Source of the DNA: Vagococcus intermedius
Lineage (GTDB): Bacteria > Bacillota > Bacilli > Lactobacillales > Vagococcaceae
Direction: 5' to 3'
Assembly: GCF_029144185.1 (NCBI RefSeq)
Contig: NZ_CP110232.1
Coordinates: 372,001 to 436,000, forward strand
DNA: 64,000 bases
The notes below the pieces were generated by a model. That model was not told where the DNA came from. It searched no databases and saw only the letters and a program-made list of their open reading frames with translations. The position numbers and the translations under genes are program-made. Shown in pieces: positions 43,734 to 45,491 of the stretch; the stretch's first letter is position 1, and each line of letters starts with the position of its first letter.

Positions 43734-45491
43734 ATGAAAAAATTACATCGTTGGGGAATTATGGCAGCAACTGTGATGTTATTAGCCGGTTGTACAGGTC
43801 AAACTAAGGGTGATGGCAATTTTGAAGGTAAAGGGACAGGAAAACATGGTGATATTAAAGTAGAGGTCACTATGAAAGACAGTCAAATAGATAAGATTAA
43901 AGTTTTGGAAGATCAAGAAAATGAAGTTTTGGCTGAACCAGTCTATGATGAATTAGAGAAAAAAATGATTGAGACTAATACGACAGATGTTGATGTTGTC
44001 ACAGGCTCTAGTGCAACAAGTGAAGGGTATTTGGCCGCAGTGAAAGATGCTGTTGAAAAATCAGGTATCACATTAGCTGCTGTTAGCAAAAAAGCAGGGG
44101 AAAGTAAGAAAGAAGAGACAGAACAAACGTATGATGTTGTCATCGTTGGTTCAGGTGGGGCTGGTTTCAGTGCCGCTATTGAAGCAAAAGAAGCAGGTAA
44201 ATCGGTAGTTATTTTAGAAAAAATGCCGGCAGTTGGTGGCAATACGTTAATTTCTGGCGCAGAGATGAATGTTCCAAATAACTGGGTACAGAAAAAACTT
44301 GGGATTAAAGGGGATAGTCCTGAGGTGATGGCAAAGGATACCATTAAAGGTGGCGATGAACTAGGTGATAAACATATGATCAAGGTCATGACCGAAAATG
44401 CGTTAGATGCCGCTGAATGGTTAAGAGATGACATTAAAGTTGATTTCTTAGAAGATCAATTGTTCCAATTTGGGGGACATTCGTATAAACGTGCGTTGAT
44501 TCCACAAGGTCATACAGGTGCAGAAGTTATTACTAAATTCCGTGCAAAAGCGAAAGAATTAAAAATTCCAGTTAAATTGAATACAACAGCTACAGAGTTA
44601 ATTCAAGATAAAGATGGGAAAGTTATTGGGGTAAAAGCTAATAACAAGGAAAAACAAGAAATTTCTTATATGGGTAAAGATGGTGTTATTTTAACAACAG
44701 GTGGTTTTGGTTCAAATATTGAAATGCGTAAGAAATATAATAAAAAGATGGATGAGAGCTATATGTCAACAGTAACTGAAGGTTCTACTGGTGACGGGAT
44801 TGTCATGGCTGAAAAAATTGGTGCTGATTTAACAAACATGGAAAATATCCAAACATATCCAATTTGTAACGTTGAAACAGGAGTTATTTCACTATTAGCA
44901 GATACTCGTTTTGATGGTGCTGTCTTAATTAACCAAGAAGGAAAACGTTTTGTAGAAGAGCTAGAGCGTCGTGATGTTATTTCAAACGCTATTTTAGATC
45001 AAACAGGAAGTTATACTTATCAGTTATGGAATGAAGACATTAACAAAATTTCTAAGACAATGGAAGCACATCAAGGAGAATATGAAGAGTTATTAAAACA
45101 AAAATTAATTGTAAAAGCTGATACTTTAGAAGAAGCAGCTGAATTCTTTGATATTGATGTTAAAAACTTAAAAGAAACAGTTAAAAAAGTTAATAAATAT
45201 GCTAAAGATGGGAAAGATAAAGATTTTGATCACCGTGGTGGTTTAGTATCGCTTGAAAAAGGCCCATATTATATTGAGAAGGCTGCACCATCTGTACACC
45301 ATACGATGGGTGGTTTAGTAATTAATGATAAGACAGAAGTCTTAGATAAAGACGGTAAAGCAATTGATGGTCTTTATGCAGCTGGTGAATTAACAGGTGT
45401 CATCCATGGTTCTAACCGTTTAGGAGGCAATGCAATTACTGATATTATCGTATTTGGTCGTATTGCAGGTCAAACAGTTGGAGAAAAGTAA
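43734..45491 (+). CDS. urdA: Flavinylated lipoprotein reductase, predicted urocanate reductase
   Basis: A 585-residue extracellular reductase of the fumarate-reductase flavoprotein family. Lipobox LLAGC gives lipidated Cys20. An FMN-binding domain (about 30-110) carries the motif [10 protein letters not shown] (residues 87-96), where an ApbE-type transferase would attach FMN to Thr95 or a neighbour. The FAD domain begins [19 protein letters not shown] (near 133). The residue that is His in fumarate reductases (QxHP) is Tyr375 here (QTYPIC). Asp390, Arg413, His522 and Arg562 follow. Relative to Shewanella UrdA residues as I remember them (Tyr373, Asp388, Arg411, His520, Arg560), the offset is a constant +2. 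I therefore predict reduction of urocanate to imidazole propionate. ATG at 43734 follows AGGAGG. Monocistronic, divergent from the sensor kinase. Confidence 0.85.

Follow-up and report, generated by a model that had tools for sequence, protein, structure and literature searches.

Imidazole propionate, a bacterial metabolite, is associated with impaired glucose control, and we know of few bacteria able to produce it from histidine alone. The closest described counterpart of the enzyme examined here is the urocanate reductase UrdA of Shewanella oneidensis (PDB 6T85-6T88), for which the structure paper names Tyr373, Asp388, Arg411, His520 and Arg560 as active-site residues and shows the imidazole of urocanate hydrogen-bonded by two residues, Glu177 and Asp388 (PMC7921117). 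A UrdA is expected to have Asp388 (or Asn/Gln) for the imidazole, Arg411 as proton donor and His520, Arg560 and Gly563 for the carboxylate. The same paper found wild-type UrdA to be without fumarate reductase activity, with a slight gain only in the Y373H variant (PMC7921117); elsewhere, 'Y or M' at position 373 has served as the criterion for a urocanate reductase (PMC11872695). Gut bacteria carrying both hutH and urdA convert labelled histidine to imidazole propionate (PMC13320830, a 2026 preprint), a reductive, Stickland-like HutH-UrdA pathway described in Fusobacterium ulcerans and Parasutterella, in which hutH adjoins urdA in the Burkholderiaceae, whereas in the Fusobacteriaceae it adjoins hutUI. 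For the supply of electrons to enzymes outside the membrane, the Ndh2/DmkA/PplA/FmnB system of Listeria is the model (PMC8238504).

The window analyzed in this study is a stretch of 64,000 nucleotides from Vagococcus intermedius (contig NZ_CP110232.1, positions 372,001 to 436,000), whose named neighbors in the comparison are V. allomyrinae, V. bubulae and V. lutrae (Vagococcaceae). We consider it highly probable (roughly 0.88) that a gene in this window encodes a UrdA orthologue, a membrane-anchored extracytosolic lipoprotein that would reduce urocanate to imidazole propionate by the electron route, and under the regulation, proposed below. The enzyme and the HutH-UrdA pathway are already known in other bacteria; the modest novelty here lies in the host lineage and in a conserved pairing with a sensor. 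A search of a largely open-access literature collection found no description of urocanate reduction in Vagococcus or of two-component regulation of urdA.

Layout and predicted structure of the protein

The urdA gene occupies 43734..45491 (+) and encodes 585 amino acids, exactly as the sequence-only reading had it. A signal peptide (43734..43793, +), recognized by eye in the translation, carries the lipobox LAGC with a predicted lipidated Cys20, and is followed by an FMN_bind domain (residues 36-108; 43839..44057, +; Pfam PF04205, 43.4 bits, cut-off 22) and an FAD_binding_2 catalytic domain (residues 134-567; 44133..45434, +; PF00890, 282 bits). Both Pfam matches are over their cut-offs, and together they form the architecture expected of UrdA (EC 1.3.99.33). 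Among NCBIfam families the product belongs to TIGR01813, flavocytochrome c (512 bits, cut-off 285), and no equivalog among the best 25 families listed for it was over its own cut-off.

The best match among solved structures is Shewanella urocanate reductase 6T85 (621 bits), far beyond chance, followed by the flavocytochrome c3 fumarate reductase Fcc3 (300 bits). An AlphaFold2 model of the product (mean pLDDT 88.7, pTM 0.83) superposes on 6T85 with a Z score of 60.0 and an rmsd of 1.5 A over 455 residues, compared to Z scores of 45-48 for fumarate reductases, although a shared fold, taken alone, says nothing about function. The likeness to Shewanella UrdA extends over the domains, the pocket residues checked and the predicted fold; the window enzyme differs in being a Gram-positive lipoprotein paired with its own two-component system.

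Active-site pocket

In a MAFFT alignment the window protein and Shewanella UrdA are 63% identical over the catalytic part. UrdA numbering was anchored by placing Tyr373 at IQSYP, after which the nine other residues named in PMC7921117 were found in place. All ten pocket and neighboring residues (UrdA E177, F243, Y373, D388, F391, R411, H520, H521, R560 and G563) are identical in the window protein, where they are numbered 177, 244, 375, 390, 393, 413, 522, 523, 562 and 565. The sequence-only reading had matched five of them at a constant offset of two, and the alignment gives the same pairs: Tyr375 (44856..44858), which corresponds to UrdA Tyr373 and to a His in fumarate reductases; Asp390 (44901..44903) to Asp388, the imidazole contact; Arg413 (44970..44972) to Arg411, the proton donor; His522, which with His523 (45297..45302) corresponds to His520-His521; and Arg562 (45417..45419) to Arg560, the carboxylate salt bridge (all on the + strand; roles from PMC7921117). 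Nearer the N-terminus the offset differs, with F244 equal to UrdA F243 and E177 to UrdA E177. The active-site residues named in that reading, and its rule of Tyr or Met for urocanate versus His for fumarate, agree with the published accounts, including the Y373H experiment (PMC7921117, PMC11872695).

The claimed motif difference also holds, with QTYP in the window protein and QSYP in UrdA compared to QAHP in Fcc3; the pocket His of the QxHP motif of fumarate reductases (FrdA/Fcc3) is absent from the window protein. The host genome encodes a second such enzyme (G000:C1:2159006-2160400, 515 aa), which is of the His type, with the signature GTHAGRHHRG, and Fcc3 has G, G, H, A and G at the first five signature positions. 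These His-type enzymes share the FAD_binding_2 domain and the catalytic Arg/His core with the window enzyme, but a His takes the place of Tyr373, and the other specificity positions hold Gly, Thr/Gly, Ala and Gly.

Relatives and phylogeny

The best 80 of 136 stretches in the genome collection that encode a relative were retained, supplemented by 31 regions that carry urdA or its close homologues in relatives from the order. The full signature EFYDFRHHRG was present in all rows more than about 53% identical to the window protein (L084 is cut by a contig end). In a tree of 97 rows (quick IQ-TREE, SH-aLRT support only), the 54 rows with this signature fall on one side of a branch with a support of 99; among them are Shewanella UrdA 6T85, Parasutterella excrementihominis, of which one strain demonstrably converts histidine to imidazole propionate (PMC13320830), and Brevibacillus laterosporus, a species listed as an imidazole propionate producer (PMC11872695). 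The 29 His rows form a separate group (support 100) that does not include the window protein. The pocket signature, phylogeny, fold match and domain layout all favor the proposal that the enzyme is a urocanate rather than a fumarate reductase.

A third group (support 96) consists of 11 Tyr rows in which three pocket positions hold Leu/Met, Met/Leu and Ser (ELYDMRHHRS or EMYDLRHHRS; L171-L173, L075, L076, L078, L080, L081 and L175-L177). By Tyr373 alone, these 11 sequences would be called UrdA; because the family also contains Tyr-type sister enzymes whose pocket differs, that residue alone is not diagnostic. Compared to position 373 alone, the ten-residue signature is the better guide for telling likely urocanate reductases from their Tyr-type sisters, which matters for counts of 'true UrdA' in metagenomes. 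The sister clade also occurs in Vagococcaceae, and some of its members are accompanied by the same kind of sensor kinase pair. A third Tyr-type form, AQYNFRHHRG, with Asn at the Asp388 position, was seen in the V. allomyrinae genome (L178:4801-6585) and at L174:4659-6440; this form adjoins its own sensor kinase and AraC-type regulator.

Predicted electron supply and flavinylation

Genes for Ndh2-like, PplA-like, ApbE (FmnB) and DmkA proteins lie together in one locus of the host genome, the Ndh2 and PplA assignments being based on domains, gene order and lipoprotein features. By analogy with Listeria, this locus could supply both electrons and covalent FMN to UrdA. NADH would donate electrons, by way of Ndh2 and demethylmenaquinone, to an FMN attached by ApbE to Ser93, and the FAD of the catalytic domain would receive them next. 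At this domain, outside the membrane, trans-urocanate would be reduced to imidazole propionate with a hydride from FAD N5 and a proton from Arg413, the imidazole being held by Asp390 and Glu177 and the carboxylate by Arg562, His522 and Arg413. With the expected partners ApbE, PplA, Ndh2 and DmkA all encoded, the host may be able to respire urocanate.

The predicted flavinylation motif is DVVTGSS (residues 87-93; 43992..44012, +), with Ser where the consensus D-x-x-[S/T]-G-A-[S/T] has Ala (PMC12052999); the Shewanella relatives have GAT where the window enzyme has TGSS. Since the Ser-for-Ala variant is common in Lactobacillales urdA genomes (19 of 26) and absent from the Pseudomonadota rows, it is a lineage variant. 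In one enzyme, a change from Ala to Val at this position halved flavinylation (PMC12052999). The His-type paralogue of the host (L038:6890-8437) has no FMN_bind match, and a flavinylation-like motif, [D/E]xx[S/T]GAS, was observed in the linker after the lipobox in 22 of 23 rows of short His-type paralogues (including L013-L033).

Divergent regulators and a direct repeat

Upstream of urdA, and divergent from it, lie genes for a sensor histidine kinase (41976..43586, -), with a dCache sensor, HAMP and PF06580 kinase domain and its start set at the ATG to which homologues align, and for its partner response regulator (41221..41979, -), with a receiver and an AraC-type HTH. The two resemble Cache-type kinases and AraC-type regulators of the YesM/YesN kind in sharing PF06580, HAMP and dCache, and the sensor fold resembles Bacillus subtilis KinD and amino-acid chemoreceptors; they differ from such systems in being divergent from urdA and conserved with it. 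The dCache domain gave a Pfam match in 14 of 18 kinase members, and a model of the sensor matches KinD and amino-acid chemoreceptor domains with Z scores of 15-18. The same head-to-head arrangement of the pair and urdA recurs across several families: it is present in Vagococcus, Enterococcus, Listeria and Paenibacillus turicensis, and in 12 of the 26 Lactobacillales urdA genomes. Among loci screened for homologues of both proteins, none had the pair beside a His-type enzyme; more distant homologues accompany some enzymes of the Ser-bearing sister clade.

Between the divergent genes lies a direct repeat, CTGATTTAGATAAA-N6-CTGATTTGGATAAA, with a 20-bp spacing (43626..43659, +), which is a predicted site for the AraC-type regulator, followed by a putative -10 box of urdA, TATACT (43681..43686, +), which was identified by eye and is weak on its own. 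The repeat was detected by a spacing scan against Markov-shuffled controls; a general repeat search did not list it. Over 14 related, and hence not independent, loci, the number of matches in the best 14-mer repeat averaged 9.79 at spacing 20, compared to a best value never above 8.79 at any spacing from 14 to 40 in 300 first-order Markov control sets. A clear repeat was absent at three of the 14 loci (L040 from V. allomyrinae, L157 and L050), and its sequence differs between Vagococcus (CTGATTT) and Enterococcus (AAGTCCA), the spacing being the same. These features fit tandem half-sites of an AraC-type regulator. At up to 3 mismatches, the repeat at urdA is the only match in the host genome, with none at the hut cluster described below, so no regulon shared with that cluster is visible.

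The regulator pairing and the repeat suggest that urdA is under inducible control: the divergent kinase and AraC-type regulator would probably turn on urdA via the repeat when its substrate or a related compound is present. One tentative proposal, to which we give slightly less than an even chance, is that this system serves specifically to detect urocanate (alternatively histidine or imidazole propionate) and activates urdA through this repeat. If it is true, the output of imidazole propionate in these Bacillota would be switched on by substrate, and the conserved sensor pairing offers a route to testing what induces the pathway.

The predicted histidine route in the host genome

The sequence-only reading had noted the lack of a histidine ammonia-lyase in the window and suggested looking for hutH elsewhere. 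The single aromatic-lyase match of the genome does lie elsewhere on the same contig (C1:1308433-1309941) and is a hutH (TIGR01225, 654 bits, cut-off 539), part of a complete hut cluster (hutH, hutU, hutI, ftcD) about 0.89 Mb from urdA. After hutH come genes for an amino-acid permease, HutD, formate-THF ligase, an FchA-like cyclohydrolase (match below its cut-off) and glutamate formimidoyltransferase, then hutI and a divergent hutU; hutU, hutI and ftcD are over their equivalog cut-offs. A large BTAD/TPR regulator is also encoded inside the cluster, between ftcD and hutI (L037:12866-15901). The host genome encodes every step of the predicted route from histidine through urocanate to imidazole propionate, as well as the predicted oxidative route to glutamate. 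The host could probably turn histidine into imidazole propionate, with urocanate coming from outside or from its own HutH, and UrdA and HutU would compete for the urocanate that HutH makes.

As in F. ulcerans and Parasutterella, the host carries both genes. Its layout is that of Fusobacteriaceae: hutH is grouped with hutU and hutI, at a distance from urdA. Parasutterella, Duodenibacillus and some relatives of Shewanella have a hutH homologue close to urdA. Compared to the bacteria of PMC13320830, the host belongs to Vagococcaceae, a family of lactic acid bacteria, and has a complete hut cluster of the formiminotransferase type together with a locus for electron export; its pathway is predicted from genes.

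Among 395 sampled Lactobacillales genomes, a urdA-signature enzyme was found in 26 (all 26 typed), hutH in 59 and both in 5, of which four are Vagococcaceae, the host included. No co-occurrence above chance was seen in these 395 genomes (hutH in 5/26 urdA carriers compared to 54/369 others; Fisher p 0.57), and within Vagococcaceae the counts (4/5 carriers versus 13/24 others) are too few to tell. Co-occurrence with hutH as evidence for the substrate is unsupported across this sample; therefore, the host hutH indicates a capacity for the whole route rather than independent support for urocanate. Lactobacillales with urdA but no hutH would have to obtain urocanate from their surroundings.

One refinement, which leaves the enzyme a urocanate reductase, is that UrdA uses exogenous urocanate only and that the hut cluster serves purely to take histidine to glutamate, not feeding UrdA because urocanate made in the cytosol would first have to be exported to meet an enzyme outside the membrane. 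The distance of about 0.89 Mb between the genes, the lack of association across Lactobacillales and the V. lutrae genome, which has urdA but no hutH match, are consistent with such a separation. We consider it less likely than not; against it, two-gene bacteria convert labelled histidine to imidazole propionate, including Fusobacterium with hutH beside hutUI (PMC13320830).

Possible other substrates

Less probable still is that urocanate is only a secondary substrate of the UrdA fold in this enzyme, the main natural one being another enoate such as an aryl- or heteroaryl-acrylate. Many enzymes of the superfamily have no assigned substrate (PMC8238504), and most Lactobacillales urdA carriers are without hutH, so their substrate must come from outside; however, Glu177 and Asp390, the counterparts of the pair that hydrogen-bonds the imidazole in UrdA, are kept along with every other pocket residue checked, and close orthologues come from species or strains for which imidazole propionate production has been reported. 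A fumarate reductase shares the superfamily, and the NCBIfam name is only 'flavocytochrome c' (TIGR01813), but this assignment is ruled out for practical purposes by the pocket and the tree, given a Tyr in place of the pocket His, a position outside the His-type clade, the inactivity of wild-type UrdA on fumarate with little gained by Y373H (PMC7921117), and a separate His-type paralogue in the host genome.

Other features of the window

Two further features of the window were noted. A surface cluster at 5529-11616 encodes an L-type lectin protein, a WxL protein and a WxL-interacting protein. At 39409-41213, a gene for a second, divergent UbiA/MenA-like prenyltransferase overlaps one for an NMT1-like substrate-binding protein; this odd pairing lies downstream of a sugar ABC transporter.
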